From positions 1 through 23,916 of IMG/VR virus record IMGVR_UViG_3300037502_001575: DNA of 23,916 nt; one strand, written 5' to 3'. Every line of letters starts with the position of its first letter. Within the stretch, counting starts at the first letter, position 1. Both the position numbers and the translations under genes were made by a program. This DNA comes from a virus. Below are positions 8,468 to 23,916 of the stretch, in pieces. A model generated the notes under the pieces. It worked only from the letters and a program-made list of their open reading frames with translations, was not told the origin of the DNA and searched no databases.

Positions 8468-10609
8468 ATGACGAAACTCTTTGACGGCATTAAATCGGTA
8501 CGGCTAGACGACCTGCCGCCGGAGGCGTGGCGCGTCATCGCGGGCGACAGCGACACATCCGCCGAGGCGCAGCGGCTATATGAAACTGTCGCTTTCCTCT
8601 ACCGCTGCGTTGAAGTGCGGGCTAACGCGTTGGTGGCGTTGCCGTGGGCTGTGCAGCGCAATGACGTTGACGTGTGGGTTCATAACGACGGAGCCGCACC
8701 CGCAGAGTTGGTTCCTTTGTCGGACATTCCCGATCTGCTGTGGCAGACTGAGGCGGCCATGTGTCTGGCGGGCGAGGCGTTTTGGCATAAAATCGAGACA
8801 CGCGCGCGCCGCCTGTTGGAAGTGCGGTGGCTATCCCCGTCAACAATTACGCCGGTTTGGGATGCGGACGCCGGACTAATCGGGTACAAGCGCGCGCTGC
8901 CCAACCGCGCGCCGCAACCGATGAGCGTGGAAGAGGTTGTGCATTTCTGGCTTCGAGGAATGCACGAAACCAAACCACGCCGCTCACCGGCAGAGGCCGC
9001 GTCAATCGCAGCGCGCGTTATCTATAACACTGATTTGTTCACTGCCGGATTTTTTGAGCGGGGCGCAATCAAGGCGACGCTGCTAACGGTGGACGGCAAT
9101 CCACTACCGGCAGAGCGCGAGCGCATTAAGAGTTGGTGGCGGCGTTTTATGGCGGGCGTCAAGAACGCGTTTACGGCTGAGGTAGTCGCGGCGTCTGTCA
9201 AGCCCGTGGTAGTCGGTGACGGCATCGGCGAGCTTGCCAACACTGCGCTCACCGCCGAGAAACGCGAGGATATCGCCACGGCTATGGGTGTACCGCACAG
9301 CCTGGTGTTATCCAACGCGGCCAACTACGCCACGTCACAGCAGGATGAAATCAATTTTTACAACTTGACAATCGTGCCAGAGGCGCGACTAATCGAGCGG
9401 CAAATCAACCGTCAATTGTTTGAGCCGCTGGGGTTGCAGTTTCAATTCCGGCCTGAGGAGTTGTCCGTTTACCAGGAGGACGAAACGCAGCGCGCGCAGG
9501 CGTTCTCGCTGTATGTCGGGGCGGGCATTCCGTTGGGTACGGCTGCACAAATTCTTGGCGTATCACTGCCCGACGGCATGGAATACGACGATCTAAACGT
9601 TGCGCCACAACCAGCGCAGCCCGCGCCAAGTGTTGACAATAACAACGACGACGATAGCGACGACGACGACGACAATGAGGCCGTGCGGCGTGTGGAGCTT
9701 CGCAGGTTGCGGCGGTGGGCCAAAGGCAAGCGACAGCCGGACGTGGATAAATTCAACAGCGACGTGTTGAGCCGTGTTGACAAAATGGCCGCGCTTGGCC
9801 TGTCTGACACGAAGGAGGCAGCCACGGCGCACGATTTTTTTACCCGTGAGCTATGGACGCCGCAACGCTGGCAGGCGTACAAAGCAATGACGTTGCAGCT
9901 TGACCCAGATGACGATGAGGCCGAGCAGCAAGCGCGCATGGAGTTGGAACGTGAATTGGCAAATAATCTGGAACGTGAGTTAACCCGGCAATTAAACACG
10001 CTGTTACCGCCGGGGACACCGGACGATGAAATTGACAACTTGGTGCGTGCGGCGGCGGGGCGGGTAGACGAAACGAGTAGCGGCGTGCGTGAGGTATTAC
10101 GTCGCGCGTTGATTGATGATGCCAGTTTGGGCGTAGCGGTGGCATTTGACACGTTGGAGCAGGTGGGCATGGCGTTTGACTGGACATTGGCGAATACCGA
10201 GGCGGCAGAATGGGCGCAACGGTACAGCTACGACCTGGTGACGCGCATCAACGACCACACGCGCACGCGCTTGGGGACGGCGGTTAACGACTGGTTCAAC
10301 GAACGCACCACGCTGCGCGACTTGCGGCGGGAACTTGCGCCGCTGTTCGGTAATCGTCGCGCGCAGCTAATCGCCCAAACCGAGACGACGCGGGCGGCGG
10401 CGGAAGGGGCGCGCATCGGCTTTGCGCAGACCGAGGGCATCAATGAATGGGAATGGGCGGCAGTTGCCGACGAACGCGTGTGCCCGATCTGCGGCGGGTT
10501 GCACGGCAAGCGCGCTGTGCTGGGGCAGCCGTTTGTGTGGAACGGGGCGCAGTACACGCCCCCGGCTCACCCAGGATGTCGGTGCTTTGTGCGGGCCGTA
10601 ATTGCATAG
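8468..10609 (+). CDS. Portal protein fused to MuF/SPP1-gp7-like head morphogenesis protein
   Basis: A single 713-residue reading frame. Residues 1-380 read as an HK97-type portal: LYETVAFLYRCVEVRANALV near the start, EVRWLSPSTITPVWD, GELANTALTAEKREDIATAMGVP and the helix around residues 300-340. The portal is the dodecameric DNA channel at the capsid vertex. Residues 385-405 are an Asn/Asp linker. Residues 425-713 form a MuF domain: long charged helices, then AQTETTRAAAEGARIGFAQ and the closing Cys/His pattern CPIC (672-675) with HPGCRC (701-706). MuF proteins are minor head proteins bound to the portal and normally have their own gene (SPP1 gp6 and gp7). Here they are joined with no stop between. 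GAGGGG precedes the ATG. Confidence 0.92.
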   Translation: MTKLFDGIKSVRLDDLPPEAWRVIAGDSDTSAEAQRLYETVAFLYRCVEVRANALVALPWAVQRNDVDVWVHNDGAAPAELVPLSDIPDLLWQTEAAMCLAGEAFWHKIETRARRLLEVRWLSPSTITPVWDADAGLIGYKRALPNRAPQPMSVEEVVHFWLRGMHETKPRRSPAEAASIAARVIYNTDLFTAGFFERGAIKATLLTVDGNPLPAERERIKSWWRRFMAGVKNAFTAEVVAASVKPVVVGDGIGELANTALTAEKREDIATAMGVPHSLVLSNAANYATSQQDEINFYNLTIVPEARLIERQINRQLFEPLGLQFQFRPEELSVYQEDETQRAQAFSLYVGAGIPLGTAAQILGVSLPDGMEYDDLNVAPQPAQPAPSVDNNNDDDSDDDDDNEAVRRVELRRLRRWAKGKRQPDVDKFNSDVLSRVDKMAALGLSDTKEAATAHDFFTRELWTPQRWQAYKAMTLQLDPDDDEAEQQARMELERELANNLERELTRQLNTLLPPGTPDDEIDNLVRAAAGRVDETSSGVREVLRRALIDDASLGVAVAFDTLEQVGMAFDWTLANTEAAEWAQRYSYDLVTRINDHTRTRLGTAVNDWFNERTTLRDLRRELAPLFGNRRAQLIAQTETTRAAAEGARIGFAQTEGINEWEWAAVADERVCPICGGLHGKRAVLGQPFVWNGAQYTPPAHPGCRCFVRAVIA

Positions 10610-10618
10610 AGGGCGAAT

Positions 10619-11098
10619 ATGGCAAGAGGGCAAATCGATGGGCTAGACGCCCTGCTTAAGCGGCTAGACGCCGTGACCGCCGCGCAGGTCGTTGTGCCGC
10701 CCATGCGGCGCGCTGTGGAACGCATCAAGCGGCGAATGCAGGTTTACCCGCCGCCCCCGGCGGCTATTCAGGGGCCAAGCAGCCGCCCTGTGCGATTTCG
10801 TACCGGGGCCGGAGCCGATGTATCGTTTGTGGCTCGCAGCCGAGGCCAGTATAAACGCACAGGCACATATGGCAGGCGATGGACAACGCGTGTATGGGGT
10901 GAGGCACGCAGCAATGTTATTTATGGCCGCGTAGGCAATAACACCAAATACGCCCCGTGGGTGGGGTCGCAGCGATTTCAGGCAGGCATTCACCGCAACC
11001 GATGGGGCACAGACGAACAGGCGTTGCGCCAAGAATTGCCTATTATTCAGGCTGATTTTACAGCAACAATTGATCGAGCGTTAGGAGGCAAACGATGA
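10619..11098 (+). CDS. Putative HK97-gp10-like structural/connector protein
   Basis: A 159-residue basic protein (many Arg) starting 9 bp after the portal-MuF gene and overlapping the protease-capsid start by 4 nt. The N-terminus is helical (GLDALLKRLDAV, VVPPMRRAVERIKRRM). A Gly/Arg-rich middle follows, then NVIYGRVGNNTKYAPWVGSQ and a C-terminal helix. The V-x-N-x-x-x-YA-x-x-V element near the C-terminal third resembles HK97 gp10-type tail completion proteins, which sit at the head-tail interface. The gene position, before the capsid gene instead of after it, is unusual for that family. A minor head protein partnering the MuF domain is an alternative. Confidence 0.5.
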   Translation: MARGQIDGLDALLKRLDAVTAAQVVVPPMRRAVERIKRRMQVYPPPPAAIQGPSSRPVRFRTGAGADVSFVARSRGQYKRTGTYGRRWTTRVWGEARSNVIYGRVGNNTKYAPWVGSQRFQAGIHRNRWGTDEQALRQELPIIQADFTATIDRALGGKR

Positions 11099-12846
11099 AT
11101 GCAACAGTTGAAATCAAGGCGGTGACTGAGGATACCGTCACCGTCGCCGGGTATGGTGTGCTGTTTGGCGGCACTGATTTGGACGGTGAAACGTTCCACC
11201 AAGATACCGAGTTCATGCTTGATCTGGTTCCTGCGAAGCTGGTGCTGTACGATCACGCGCGCGGCCCGGTGCGCCACGTTATCGGCAAAACCACAACCGT
11301 CACGCCGGATGAGCGCGGGCTGTGGGTGGAGGCGGAATTGAACCGCCATACTGATTATGTTGAACAGGTTATGACGCTGGTAAAGGCGGGCGCGCTGGGT
11401 TGGTCGTCGGGCAGCGTCGGCCATTTGACGCAGCGCAACGGCAAGAGTATCACGCGCTGGCCTATTATCGAGTTTTCCCTGACACCGACTCCCGCGGAAC
11501 CGCGGACTGTTGGTGTTGAGATTATCAAATCGTTGGCAGATGTAGACGAGTCGTATAGACTGTTATTGCCGGAGGACGCCATCGCTCTCACCGAGGATGC
11601 GTCGGTGCAAACAGACGTTGTAAAGGCAAACGCATTGATTCATGTGGAGGATACAGTGAGCGAAGAGCGCGCGACTACTGAAGTCGCTGAGGCCGAGCAG
11701 GTTAAGTCCCTGAACAACCGGCTCGACGCGTTGTCGGAAACGATGGCGCAGGTTTTGCAATTCATGCAGGATAGCCCGAAGGTGAAGTCCGCGGGCTATT
11801 TCACCGAGGATGGCGGCGCGGCGGACGCTAACGTCAAGAGCTTTGGCGACTGGCTTATGGCCGTGCGCCGCAATGACGTTACCCGTCTGGCAAAGGTTTA
11901 CAAGAGCGTCGGCACGAAGGATATGACGCTTGGCACTGGCACTCAGGGCGGCTACCTGGTTCCGCCTGAATACGGCACGCGCCTCATGCAGTTGGCCGCT
12001 ACGCAGTCGCAGATTACCGGGCGCGTCACGCTGATTAACGTCAACAGTGACAGCGGCGCGTATCCTGTGCTGGATCAGTACATTGTTCCTACTGCCGGTT
12101 CCGGCAACAGCGCAATGGCCGCTGGCGTTACCGCCAACGTCACCGCCGAGGGCGCGCTGCTGACTGAGACGCAGGCCGGGTTTGAGGATTTGCAATACCG
12201 CGTCTACAAGGTTGGTGGGTTCACCGAGGTTACCAACGAACTGATTAGCGACAGCCCGCAGGCTATTGAGACGCTGCTGTCGCAACTGTTTGGCATCGCC
12301 ATCGCCGCCAAGAATGAGCGCAACATTTTGCGCGGGACTGGCGCGGGCGAACCGCTCGGCATCCTGAACGCCGCGTGTGCGGTTGGCATTTCCCCGAATA
12401 CCAACAACGAGTTTAAGTGGCAGGACGCGCTGAGCATGGTTGCGCGTTTCAAGAGCGCGGGCGGTTCGCCGGTGTGGTTGATTCACCCGTCGATTTGGCC
12501 GGACATTGGCGCAATGGAAAGCAGCGCGGGCGGCTCTGTGTGGCAGGCCAACATGACGGCGGGCAGCCCGTCTACGCTGTTGAGCTACCCGATTCTGGTT
12601 AGCGAACACCTGCCGCAGGCCAACAATGCCGGTGCGGTTATGCTGGCAGATTTGTCGGCGTATCTGTGGTTCCAGCGTGAGGGTTTGCAGATTGCCTACA
12701 GCGAACACGCTGCTTTCACCACCGACAAGGGGACGTGGCGTTTCACCCAGCGTGTGGACGGCAAGCCGTGGCTGCGCTCGGCCATTACCATGTCCGATCC
12801 GCAGGGAAGCTACACCGTTAGCCCGTTCGTGTACCACAACGACTAA
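11095..12846 (+). CDS. Prohead protease fused to HK97-like major capsid protein
   Basis: A 583-residue protein starting at ATG 11095 with AGGAGG six bases upstream. Residues 1-145 match the HK97-type prohead protease: AGYGVLFG, the catalytic His54 in LYDHARGPVRHVIG, a Ser in GWSSGSVG (104-106), and EFSLTPTPAEP, which closes the fold. Residues about 190-226 form a coiled coil, like the delta/scaffold region that the protease removes. Residues about 240-583 are an HK97-fold capsid: SVGTKDMTLGTGTQGGYLVPPEYG, an extended loop, TNELISDSP, and GTGAGEPLGIL toward the end. These are normally two or three genes. With every capsid subunit carrying a protease the shell would be crowded, so the internal start described separately is probably important. 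Confidence 0.92.
   Translation: MNATVEIKAVTEDTVTVAGYGVLFGGTDLDGETFHQDTEFMLDLVPAKLVLYDHARGPVRHVIGKTTTVTPDERGLWVEAELNRHTDYVEQVMTLVKAGALGWSSGSVGHLTQRNGKSITRWPIIEFSLTPTPAEPRTVGVEIIKSLADVDESYRLLLPEDAIALTEDASVQTDVVKANALIHVEDTVSEERATTEVAEAEQVKSLNNRLDALSETMAQVLQFMQDSPKVKSAGYFTEDGGAADANVKSFGDWLMAVRRNDVTRLAKVYKSVGTKDMTLGTGTQGGYLVPPEYGTRLMQLAATQSQITGRVTLINVNSDSGAYPVLDQYIVPTAGSGNSAMAAGVTANVTAEGALLTETQAGFEDLQYRVYKVGGFTEVTNELISDSPQAIETLLSQLFGIAIAAKNERNILRGTGAGEPLGILNAACAVGISPNTNNEFKWQDALSMVARFKSAGGSPVWLIHPSIWPDIGAMESSAGGSVWQANMTAGSPSTLLSYPILVSEHLPQANNAGAVMLADLSAYLWFQREGLQIAYSEHAAFTTDKGTWRFTQRVDGKPWLRSAITMSDPQGSYTVSPFVYHND
11646..11658 (+). promoter_or_regulatory. Internal Shine-Dalgarno and in-frame GTG inside the protease-capsid gene
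   Basis: GGAGG at 11646-11650 is followed five bases later by GTG at 11656-11658. This GTG is in frame with the fusion gene (codon 188) and begins the coiled-coil segment VSEERATTEV, exactly between the protease domain and the scaffold/capsid part. A site of this strength at a domain boundary is unlikely to be chance. An ATG at 11642 is out of frame. Confidence 0.72.
11656..12846 (+). CDS. Major capsid protein precursor from internal start (nested product)
   Basis: Initiation at GTG 11656 would give a 396-residue protein without the protease domain, close to the 385 residues of the HK97 capsid precursor. It begins with a charged coiled coil (LNNRLDALSETMAQVLQFMQ), expected of a delta/scaffold domain, and continues through the whole HK97-fold capsid. 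It would supply the several hundred subunits of the shell, while the less abundant full-length fusion supplies the maturation protease inside the prohead. The logic resembles lambda C/Nu3, where an in-frame nested gene gives a scaffold from within a protease gene. Whether both products are made is inference from the ribosome binding site. A proteolytic split of the fusion is the alternative. Confidence 0.68.
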   Translation: MSEERATTEVAEAEQVKSLNNRLDALSETMAQVLQFMQDSPKVKSAGYFTEDGGAADANVKSFGDWLMAVRRNDVTRLAKVYKSVGTKDMTLGTGTQGGYLVPPEYGTRLMQLAATQSQITGRVTLINVNSDSGAYPVLDQYIVPTAGSGNSAMAAGVTANVTAEGALLTETQAGFEDLQYRVYKVGGFTEVTNELISDSPQAIETLLSQLFGIAIAAKNERNILRGTGAGEPLGILNAACAVGISPNTNNEFKWQDALSMVARFKSAGGSPVWLIHPSIWPDIGAMESSAGGSVWQANMTAGSPSTLLSYPILVSEHLPQANNAGAVMLADLSAYLWFQREGLQIAYSEHAAFTTDKGTWRFTQRVDGKPWLRSAITMSDPQGSYTVSPFVYHND

Positions 12847-12857
12847 GGAGACTGACA

Positions 12858-13310
12858 ATGGCTATTAAGCCTTCTGAACAAATGGCGATTGTCGCCACGA
12901 TTGATCCAGACGCGTACGGGGCTGACACCTACGTTAGCGACTGGATTGACATTGGCAAATTCAAGGGCGGCCTCATGGCTGTCGTTATGGCGGGCGACTT
13001 GGGGACTAGCGCGACGCTGGACGCCAAGTGGCGGCAGGCCACGTCCAACGCCGGGGCCAACGCCAAAGATTTTAGCCCCGCGCTGTCTATCACTCAGTTG
13101 ACGCAAGCCGGGACTGACAGCGACAAGCAAATTATTCTCCAGGTGACTGCGGACAAATGCGACTTGGCTAACGGGTTCCGCTTTGTGGCTCTGAGCATGA
13201 CTGTAGCCGTTGCCACCAGCGACGCGGGCGCGATTGTAATCGGTTTGGGCGCGGACTATGGCCCTGCTGAACAGTACGACTTGGCGTCTGTTGACGAGAT
13301 TGTCGGCTAA
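12858..13310 (+). CDS. Probable capsid decoration/head accessory protein
   Basis: A 150-residue protein directly after the capsid gene, with AGGAG before the ATG. It is Ala/Gly/Asp-rich, with short alternating hydrophobic strands: SDWIDIGKFKGGLMAVVMAG, LDAKWRQATS, QIILQVTADKCDLANGFRFV and AIVIGLGADYGPAE. It looks like a single beta-sandwich domain. Many phages encode small decoration or head-associated proteins at this place. The pattern of a noise-like strand followed by QATSNAGANAKD is shared with uncharacterised phage proteins next to capsid genes, as far as I recall. No enzymatic motif is seen. Decoration is inferred from position and composition. Confidence 0.6.
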   Translation: MAIKPSEQMAIVATIDPDAYGADTYVSDWIDIGKFKGGLMAVVMAGDLGTSATLDAKWRQATSNAGANAKDFSPALSITQLTQAGTDSDKQIILQVTADKCDLANGFRFVALSMTVAVATSDAGAIVIGLGADYGPAEQYDLASVDEIVG

Positions 13311-21135: not shown

Positions 21136-21552
21136 ATGGCAAAAACCTGGGTGCATGGCGATATACCGACGGCGGCAGATATTAACCAGTATGGCACGGA
21201 GCTAAACACGCTCAACACCAACACGCCAGGATACAACGCTATTCCGTGCATCCTGCTTCGCACAAATGAGGATTGGACAACTAACCTGGCGTGGCCGGAT
21301 TATCCAAGCGTGCAAATCGGTGGCATTGTTCAGGAATTCGAGTACCGCATTAGGCACACAAAACGATACCTTCATTTCAAAGGTGTCGGTGGCAAAATCG
21401 CAGACGTGTCTGGTTTCGAGCCGGACGTGACACTATCGCCGGGGGCCGGTGGCACGGGTGTCATCGATTTGGAGGGCGTGACGTGGTTGGTGTACGGGCA
21501 GTGGTATAAGGTGCAGCGCATTGAAGCGGCGTGGGAGCTAGACGATGCCTAA
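21136..21552 (+). CDS. Small tail-tip/fibre-associated protein (138 aa), N-terminal paralogue
   Basis: Starts at ATG 21136 after GGGGG. Residues 1-25 (WVHGDIPTAADINQYGTELN) repeat the design of the preceding protein's N-terminus, a G-D-I/L-x-T-A-x-x-x/N-x pattern, which presumably docks to the same partner. The rest is beta-rich (LAWPDYPSVQIGGIVQEFEYRIRH, YLHFKGVGGKIADVSGFEP). The stop lies inside the start of the large fibre gene (8-nt overlap), so expression is coupled. The pair may form alternative tip decorations on the same site. Confidence 0.62.
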   Translation: MAKTWVHGDIPTAADINQYGTELNTLNTNTPGYNAIPCILLRTNEDWTTNLAWPDYPSVQIGGIVQEFEYRIRHTKRYLHFKGVGGKIADVSGFEPDVTLSPGAGGTGVIDLEGVTWLVYGQWYKVQRIEAAWELDDA

Positions 21553-23916
21553 ACGGACGCCAGTAATTGTCACAGACTACCGGCCAAAAATTCTTGCGGG
21601 TTCCACCACGGCGAGCGGTGGCGCGCAGCCGCTGATTGTTCACGACATCAACACCAGTCACAGCGGCAATCTGCTGTGGAGCCGGTTGGACAAGGCGGGC
21701 AGTAGTCTAGCCGACATTGTCACGCGTCCACATGGCGCATTGACAGACATTGGCACGAACACACACGCGCAGATTGATTCGCATATTGCCACGGGTGATA
21801 TTCACGTCTCGCACAGCGGCGTCACGTTGACGGCGGGCAACGGACTGACAGGCGGCGGGACGATTGCAGCAAGCCGGACGTTTGCGGTAGGAGCCGGGGA
21901 CGGTATTACCGTTAACGCTGACGATGTGGCCGTAGACACTACGGTAGTGCGAACAACGCGCACGATAACGTCTGGCGGCGGGTTGACAGGCGGGGGTGAT
22001 TTAAGCGCAAACCGCACACTGGCAGTTGGGGCCGGGGACGGTATCACCGTTAACGCTGACGATGTGGCACTCACAACGCCGGGGACGTTAAGCGCGACAA
22101 CTTCCAACACGGCGAGCGGCAATCATACGCACGCGGTATCAACCGGCGCGGCGTCTACACTGAGCGCGACAACTGCCAACGCCACGGGAACAAGTAGCAG
22201 CCTCGCACGCGCAGATCACCTCCATGCTATATCCACCGGCGCAGCGTCTACGCTCACCGTTAGCACGTCAAACGCCACGGGAACGAGCAGCAACCTCGCA
22301 CGCGCAGATCACCTTCACACGATTACAACGTCAAGCAATCCCGGCGCGGCAGCGTCTATCTTGGCGTCATCGGCGTCGGGCAGTCTGCAACTGGTGACGC
22401 TGGCGTCGAATGTGGGATTCACCAGCGGGTTTGCGGGGGCGGGCTATCGGGTAGATTATGGGGTGACGGAGGCGGGAAAAGCCAGCGCAGAGTTTGACAA
22501 CCTCACCGTGCGCGGGCGGATGCGAATCTATGAGCTGCTAATCCAACAGATTCGAGCTACAAACGGTTCGGTGTTCGTATCCAGCAGCAGCCGCGCCGAG
22601 GTTGTCACTGAGGATAATGACTGGCACGTCAACGGTGAACAGCTTGATCTAAACGGCGTGGGAGCTTCATTTGACGCGCGGATATTCACCATTCGCACGC
22701 GCACAACCACGGGCAGCGGAGATCGTAACCTTTACCACGGGTTCCTGGTGAATGACATCCTGCGCGCTCAGCGTGTGGACATCGGCACGGGTGGCAGCCT
22801 GATTACGCGCCAGGTCAACCTGCAAATGACACGGTTCGTCAATTTGTGGGAATATGTCGGGGCGTTGGTGTCGGGTGACGTGCCAGTGGTTGGCGACGAA
22901 ATGGTGCGCCTGGGCAGTATCACCGACACAACGCGACAGGGTTCAATCTACCTCACGTCGGACGATAGCAACGCGCCATTTATTGACATTGTGAACGAAG
23001 TGGCGAGCCATGCGGAGTGGAACCAGGCCGGTAAAATCAAAGCGCGCCTGGGACGGTTGAGTGGGATTGTTGACGATGATTTCGACGAACCAGTAAGCGG
23101 CTATGGGCTGTACTCGGACAACGTGTACCTAAAGGGGAAGATCGTTGTCACGGGTGGAAACGTTGCAACGACTGACGCGATAAACACCGGGCTGGCAACT
23201 AAAATCAACACGGGCGGCGCGGCGGCAGACGTTAACAACAACACCACCACAATCAGCGGTGGGCGGATTACAACAAACACGATTACCGCCTTGCAGATTG
23301 CAGCGCAGACAATTACGGCTGCGCAAATTGCAGCAAACACAATTACGGCTGCGCAGATTGCGGCAGGGACAATTACAGCAACGCAAATAAACGTCAGTCA
23401 ACTATCTGCAATTTCGGTCGATTTGGGGAACGTGACGGCAGGCCAGATTATTGTCGGGGACTTGTATAACAAATTGTGGCTGAATGACGCGAACGACGGC
23501 GGACTGGCGATTGGTGGCACGACGAAGGGCAGCGCGCCATTCCGGGTGACAGCGGCAGGTGCGTTGACTGCGACGAATGCAACGATTACCGGCAGTGTTA
23601 CGTCAACCAGTGGAGCTATCGGCGGCTGGACACTGAGCGTAGGCGCGCTTACGTCTGGCAATGTTGGGCTGCGTTCAGGGCAGGTTACCACGGGCGTAGC
23701 GATTTATGCGGGCAACGCCATACCCACATCTGCGCCATTCCGGGTGACAGCGGCGGGTGCGTTGACTGCAACGAATGCAACGATTACCGGCAACATTACG
23801 TCAACCATTGGAACCATCGGCGGCTGGACACTAAGCACGTCTGCAATATCGTCTACGAATATTTCACTCACATCCGGCGCGGCCAACGTTGCCAGTATTC
23901 AGGCGGGGACAGGAAC
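21545..23916 (+). CDS. Large repetitive tail fibre / host-specificity protein, 3' end beyond window
   Basis: Open from ATG 21545 to the right edge: at least 790 residues, no stop. Residues 1-85 form an N-terminal attachment region with several His (IDSHIATGDIHVSHSG). Then come two GLTGGG...RT-AVGAGDGITVNADDVA repeats (a common tail-fibre repeat), three H-x-H units (HTH, HLH, HLH, 31 residues apart) like the iron-coordinating motifs of T4 gp37, and a unique central domain of about 250 residues (from about 265). Next is an ITAAQIAA decapeptide run, then two copies of a 66-residue-spaced SAPFRVTAAGALTATNATITG module, each ending IGGWTLS. Such proteins trimerise and bind the host surface. The receptor-binding tip is likely past the window end. 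Confidence 0.86.
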   Translation, partial: MPKRTPVIVTDYRPKILAGSTTASGGAQPLIVHDINTSHSGNLLWSRLDKAGSSLADIVTRPHGALTDIGTNTHAQIDSHIATGDIHVSHSGVTLTAGNGLTGGGTIAASRTFAVGAGDGITVNADDVAVDTTVVRTTRTITSGGGLTGGGDLSANRTLAVGAGDGITVNADDVALTTPGTLSATTSNTASGNHTHAVSTGAASTLSATTANATGTSSSLARADHLHAISTGAASTLTVSTSNATGTSSNLARADHLHTITTSSNPGAAASILASSASGSLQLVTLASNVGFTSGFAGAGYRVDYGVTEAGKASAEFDNLTVRGRMRIYELLIQQIRATNGSVFVSSSSRAEVVTEDNDWHVNGEQLDLNGVGASFDARIFTIRTRTTTGSGDRNLYHGFLVNDILRAQRVDIGTGGSLITRQVNLQMTRFVNLWEYVGALVSGDVPVVGDEMVRLGSITDTTRQGSIYLTSDDSNAPFIDIVNEVASHAEWNQAGKIKARLGRLSGIVDDDFDEPVSGYGLYSDNVYLKGKIVVTGGNVATTDAINTGLATKINTGGAAADVNNNTTTISGGRITTNTITALQIAAQTITAAQIAANTITAAQIAAGTITATQINVSQLSAISVDLGNVTAGQIIVGDLYNKLWLNDANDGGLAIGGTTKGSAPFRVTAAGALTATNATITGSVTSTSGAIGGWTLSVGALTSGNVGLRSGQVTTGVAIYAGNAIPTSAPFRVTAAGALTATNATITGNITSTIGTIGGWTLSTSAISSTNISLTSGAANVASIQAGTG
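21842..22068 (+). repeat. Two 46-residue (138 bp) tail-fibre repeats
   Basis: The stretch 21842-21930 recurs at 21980-22068 with the same spacing. Both encode GLTGGG, an Arg-Thr-x-Ala-Val-Gly-Ala-Gly element and DGITVNADDVA. Differences are mostly silent in the last 35 bases and larger in the first part. The unit is a known style of fibre shaft repeat. Confidence 0.85.
22124..22318 (+). repeat. 93-bp repeats carrying His-x-His motifs
   Basis: Three His-x-His codon pairs lie exactly 93 bases apart (22124, 22217 and 22310). Between them, STGAASTL and NATGTSS-LARAD recur. In long tail fibres such as T4 gp37, His-x-His pairs from three chains bind iron along the axis, so a metal-stabilised shaft is suggested. 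Confidence 0.8.
23276..23392 (+). repeat. 30-bp repeats coding TITAAQIAA-type decapeptides
   Basis: About four tandem units of 30 bases encode NTITALQIAA, QTITAAQIAA, NTITAAQIAA and GTITATQINV. Second and third copies differ by few bases. The regular Ile spacing suits a trimeric beta-helix or coiled shaft segment. Confidence 0.85.
23534..23836 (+). repeat. Two 105-bp near-identical modules (period 198 bp)
   Basis: 23534-23638 and 23732-23836 differ at about 9 of 105 bases by eye. Both encode APFRVTAAGALTATNATITG, then a Thr/Ser turn and IGGWTLS. More copies may follow beyond the window. The module is typical of phage tip proteins and may allow length or specificity change by recombination. 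Confidence 0.85.

Follow-up and report, generated by a model that had tools for sequence, protein, structure and literature searches.

The virus gene analyzed here encodes a prohead protease and an HK97-type capsid protein in one frame, and it very probably contains a second, functional start, which would allow the capsid precursor to be translated without the protease. The gene is part of a 23.9-kb IMG/VR virus record of 23,916 nucleotides (in the following called the window) that has tailed-phage head and tail genes on board. Across 26 clusters of fused homologues, the signal for the nested start is far beyond chance. All coordinates refer to the plus strand of the window.

The fusion gene and its predicted products

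The full-length gene (11095–12846) is a single uninterrupted frame of 583 codons, which encodes 583 amino acids comprising an S78 prohead protease, a linker, a coiled-coil (delta) region and an HK97-type capsid domain. Its ATG at 11095 overlaps the stop codon of the preceding gene as ATGA, and it is preceded by the ribosome-binding site AGGAGG (11083–11088), which has a Shine-Dalgarno (SD) score of -10.2. The Pfam profile Peptidase_S78 (PF04586) matched residues 5–138 (11107–11508) with 27.4 bits at a curated cut-off of 21 (E 4e-6). The protease comprises residues 1 to about 140, and the AlphaFold2 model is ordered through this domain up to about residue 163. It is followed by a disordered linker (11584–11655; pLDDT below 50 at residues 164–200), the length and sequence of which vary strongly between homologues, and by a long helix of the scaffold/delta region (residues 190–226; 11662–11772) in the predicted secondary structure. 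The Phage_capsid profile (PF05065, HK97-type major capsid) matched residues 285–564 (11947–12786) with 162 bits at a cut-off of 24.2 (E 2e-47), and structures have been solved for relatives of the capsid part such as the RcGTA capsid and HK97 gp5. The Pfam matches and the helix agree with the initial annotation, which had read protease, coiled coil and HK97-type capsid in one frame. The AlphaFold2 model was poor overall (pLDDT 57, pTM 0.33) and poor in the capsid half, and therefore only the protease, the linker and the helix were taken from it. A fold search with the model gave weak matches to capsids of gene transfer agents, to herpesvirus proteases and to T4 gp21 (E 0.0025–0.07). By analogy with the delta/capsid junction of HK97, a maturation cleavage would be expected near Lys231 (11785–11787; ..SPKVK/SAGY..).

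The residues expected of an active S78 protease are conserved in the fused homologues. The putative catalytic His54 (11254–11256) is a histidine in all 38 alignable sequences, and of the putative catalytic serine pair at residues 104–105 (11404–11409) the first is present in 39 of 39 and the second in 38 of 39. In the linker of the near relatives of the window, synonymous codon changes outnumber nonsynonymous changes. Because the His and the Ser pair are kept and the linker changes are mostly synonymous, selection seems to act on both products. A second protease gene was not recognized among the scanned proteins of the window.

Three neighboring genes were noted. At the C-terminus of the portal protein (8468–10609), a Mu-F-like head morphogenesis domain is encoded in frame (PF04860 and PF04233), which makes this gene a second head-gene fusion in this virus. 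The capsid gene is followed by a gene for a protein of 150 amino acids (12858–13310; phrog_28483), which may be a decoration protein, and similar open reading frames are located downstream in the homologous loci examined. A long gene that is open at the end of the window (21545–23914) contains 30-base repeats (23267–23388; repeated AAQTITA-like motifs), and it probably encodes a tail or fiber protein.

A probable nested start at the protease/scaffold joint

The predicted nested ribosome-binding site GGAGG (11646–11650; SD score -9.3) is separated by the five bases ATACA from a GTG at 11656–11658. The distance to the upstream start, (11656 - 11095)/3 = 187, places this GTG in frame as codon 188. 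The predicted nested capsid precursor (11656–12846) has 396 amino acids, and its start lies in the flexible joint directly ahead of the helix. Coordinates, spacing, frame and product length, all of which the initial annotation had given, were verified. However, a TTG at 11338 in the same gene has the same SD score of -9.3, and a codon-permutation test of the window linker alone gave p = 0.20, so that the function of the nested start is not proven from the window sequence by itself.

Therefore, the evidence has to come from homologues. Viral contigs and genomes were scanned with the protein and with alignments, and 39 distinct fused homologues were obtained, which form 26 clusters at 70% identity; one of them (L057) is from a Chloroflexi genome. 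The loci L033–L056, which have a different capsid family and proteases in separate genes, were excluded. An in-frame linker start that is preceded by an SD-like sequence was found in 26 of 26 clusters. The nested start thus withstood the comparison with homologues, as even divergent clusters keep both the ribosome-binding site and the start at the joint. The start codon is GTG in the close relatives of the window only and ATG in all others. The predicted nested products have a narrow size distribution (404 +/- 18 amino acids), and their N-termini, commonly MSD, MSE or MTD, resemble real ones. Examples of the site are AGAGGTGACAGAC-ATG in L005, GAGGAGGGTAAC-ATG in L062, CAGGAGGACATAACC-ATG in L068 and GTGGAGGAACGA-ATG in L086. 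Two more distant fusions from Chloroflexota genomes (L124 and L128) likewise carry a nested site. The sequence GTGGAGGA is common to the window, L086 and L072, although their linkers otherwise align poorly. A comparison of the window with L002, L003 and L004 gave zero changes in the nine codons that surround the nested site, and 7 to 11 differences in the preceding 40 linker codons.

The signal is not uniformly strong. In the clade of the window, the start is a GTG at a spacing of only five bases. Weak nested SD motifs were found in L065 (-5.8), L066 (-5.6) and L008 (-6.4), and in a few homologues another linker start scores better (L014 ATG219, L086 GTG184, L081 GTG201 and L091 ATG267). For L091, ATG224 was used for product size and RNA structure although ATG267 scores best; the rank test is unaffected by this choice. 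Five homologues (L009, L019, L057, L082 and L096) have about 100–180 extra residues ahead of the protease domain, and this additional region of L096 has a weak match to phrog_760.

Statistical tests were applied over the clusters. In 21 of 25 clusters, the linker contains the ATG with the best SD motif of the whole gene, compared to 4.6 clusters expected (P = 9e-13). An SD score of -6 or lower was found at 26 of 66 in-frame linker ATGs, versus 17 of 283 ATGs in the parts of the gene for the protease and the capsid (P = 6e-11) and versus 5 of 79 in the +1 frame. The codon permutation test over all clusters gave a Fisher P of 3e-7. At the nested starts, the RNA is only weakly structured (mean z +1.30; 25 of 26), also when the comparison is made within the linkers (mean z +0.99; 22 of 26). 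A randomization of synonymous codons over the clusters did not reach significance (Fisher P 0.05–0.14), because it is mostly the Glu, Gly and Arg codons that dictate the letters of the SD motifs. Codon choice therefore gives no independent proof, and the support comes from where the Met and the purine-rich codons are placed: side by side, in frame and at the joint.

Unfused relatives

All eight unfused relatives have an SD motif at the start of their separate capsid gene, which encodes a product of 400–440 amino acids. As the kind of signal and the product size correspond, the nested start is comparable to the start of a separate capsid gene. A homologous protease is encoded by a separate gene in L024, L029, L098, L099 and L100, whereas in L010, L023 and L030 no nearby match to the window-type protease profile accompanies the capsid gene. 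The fused state is the more common one in this sample (26 clusters versus the 5 loci in which a homologous protease is split off). The capsid tree requires at least four changes between the fused and the unfused state, counted irrespective of their direction, and two of them are forced by well-supported branches.

The Salinibacter phages also have a homologous protease, but in a separate gene; the S78 domain lies near the end of a 935-amino-acid protein that is annotated as hypothetical (L058, 521–3325). Caulobacter W2 and Streptomyces Dagobah, whose capsids are the nearest annotated relatives, have separate proteases as well.

Alternative explanations

The full-length fusion might be the sole product, as would follow if the fusions of Gifsy-2 and MD8 are read as single genes. 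Every subunit would then carry a protease, any short form would arise by proteolysis, and the apparent SD motif would simply be codons of an acidic and Gly-rich linker. The strong upstream start of the window, with its ATGA overlap, and the non-significant synonymous test would fit this explanation, and the fusion of phage MD8 has been published as one protein with three domains (PMC8508860). It is nevertheless unlikely, because it does not account for the enrichment of in-frame SD motifs over the gene bodies and the +1 frame, for the narrow size of the products and their N-terminal sequences, or for the fact that the capsid gene of unfused relatives begins with the same kind of site. The opposite extreme, in which the nested capsid would be the only structural product and the fusion a minor protein with a dispensable capsid part and a protease acting like HK97 gp4, is in our opinion quite improbable. 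The separate homologous proteases of the five split loci show that the protease does occur on its own, but the fused state is far more common in this sample, and the frame has stayed open although the linkers vary, as if the fusion were selected for.

The nested site could also be a relic, left over when the stop codon of the protease gene was lost at the fusion and the ribosome-binding site of the former capsid gene had not yet decayed. The alternation of fused and unfused states on the capsid tree, with at least two of the four changes on well-supported branches, would be compatible with such an origin. However, the site persists where the linkers can no longer be aligned, as with GTGGAGGA in the window, L086 and L072. 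A relic would decay, and as the site has been kept in 26 clusters over such distances, we regard this explanation as very improbable. A functional nested capsid start is the reading that we prefer.

Proposed mechanism and subunit ratio

We propose that two capsid subunits are encoded by the same open frame. The protease-delta-capsid fusion would be translated from ATG 11095, and internal initiation at GTG 11656, mediated by GGAGG, would yield the plain delta-capsid precursor. The delta helix and the capsid fold are common to both products, and therefore the fusion and plain subunits could co-assemble in one procapsid, the lattice of which would carry the protease inside. After assembly, the protease would be expected to cut the delta/capsid junction, and this cut would release the delta domain and, from the fusion subunits, the attached protease. 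The anatomy of the gene points to a procapsid of mixed subunits, with a shell protein that would bring in the protease itself; this mechanism is inferred, as are the use of both starts, their ratio, the co-assembly and the cleavage site. Ribosomes that translate the full frame could interfere with initiation at the nested start.

The initial annotation had further proposed that few subunits bear a protease and many are plain. The strengths of the SD motifs did not bear this out. In the window, the upstream ATG looks at least as strong as the nested GTG (-10.2 versus -9.3). The mean scores over the 26 clusters are -7.3 for the upstream and -8.7 for the nested starts, but the nested motif is the stronger one in only 17 of 26 clusters, and SD scores are no measure of translation. 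A fixed ratio and a co-assembly through the capsid part remain plausible.

Comparison with known systems

Fusions of protease and capsid have been described before, as have nested protease/scaffold genes. In herpesviruses, the scaffold gene UL26.5 is nested in the protease-scaffold gene UL26, in the same frame and 3′-coterminal; the nested product is scaffold only and is made from a separate transcript, and the capsid protein is encoded separately. The window gene shares the nested same-frame, 3′-coterminal products, and the proteases are alike by weak fold matches, but in the window the predicted nested product includes the capsid protein itself. HK97 has, like the window, an S78 protease and the HK97 capsid fold, and its N-terminal delta scaffold domain corresponds to the helix predicted here, but protease (gp4) and capsid (gp5) are encoded by two genes.

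The genes C and Nu3 of phage lambda overlap (PMC8508860, citing Shaw and Murialdo 1980). As proposed for the window gene, they are read in a single frame: the protease fusion begins at the upstream start, and a shorter C-terminal product, which co-assembles with it, begins internally. In lambda, however, only the scaffold is nested, and the capsid protein E has a separate gene, whereas the predicted nested product of the window comprises delta and the capsid domain; in addition, the lambda protease is S49-like, whereas that of the window belongs to S78. The likeness to C/Nu3 drawn in the initial annotation is apt in principle. An in-frame internal start with its own ribosome-binding site is present in the window and in all clusters; the window gene would work like C/Nu3, yet it is no C/Nu3 homologue. 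As a positive control, lambda was ambiguous: the annotated nu3 start (5132; L157 133) turned out to have no SD motif. The ATG at codon 309 of C (5342; L157 343) is preceded by a strong one, CAGGAGGGCGA, and the annotated nu3 start may be wrong.

The Gifsy-2/MD8 type likewise joins protease, scaffold and capsid within a single frame, but its protease is ClpP-like (PF00574 in Gifsy-2) and unrelated to the S78 protease of the window, and its scaffold is longer. For MD8, the three parts were described as one gene, and an internal start was not mentioned (PMC8508860). Eleven fusions of the ClpP type were compiled (Gifsy-2, mEp460, mEp043, MD8, Pmp14, S1, RcBaka, Psul1, Shewanella 1/44, Vibrio 1.050 and PBb002). 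All 11 have a Met at the ClpP/scaffold joint, the predicted products have 454–484 amino acids, and the SD scores range from -5.6 to -9.1. In fusions of cultured phages, the Met at the joint mostly has an SD motif (L144 at 23131, L149, L150, L152 and L156). The rank test of the SD motifs was positive in 4 of 11 cases and not significant (P = 0.12), in part because the start lay two residues outside the aligned linker in two vibrio/shewanella phages. A wider rule is therefore suggested only: nested capsid starts might be general in protease-capsid fusions of the S78 and the ClpP type, with heads as mosaics of protease-bearing and plain subunits, but we are slightly more inclined to doubt than to accept this. 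The open papers searched did not report any conserved nested start that belongs to the capsid protein itself.

Studies of phage assembly still have to explain how the right amount of maturation protease comes to lie inside a closed shell, and a nested start could be the way in which the head-maturation enzyme is built into the shell. This would also affect annotation, because the capsid proteins are read as proteins of 580–770 amino acids, whereas the main structural product may have about 400. A possible answer from one gene is that the shell protein carries the protease and that a second start sets how many of the subunits do so.
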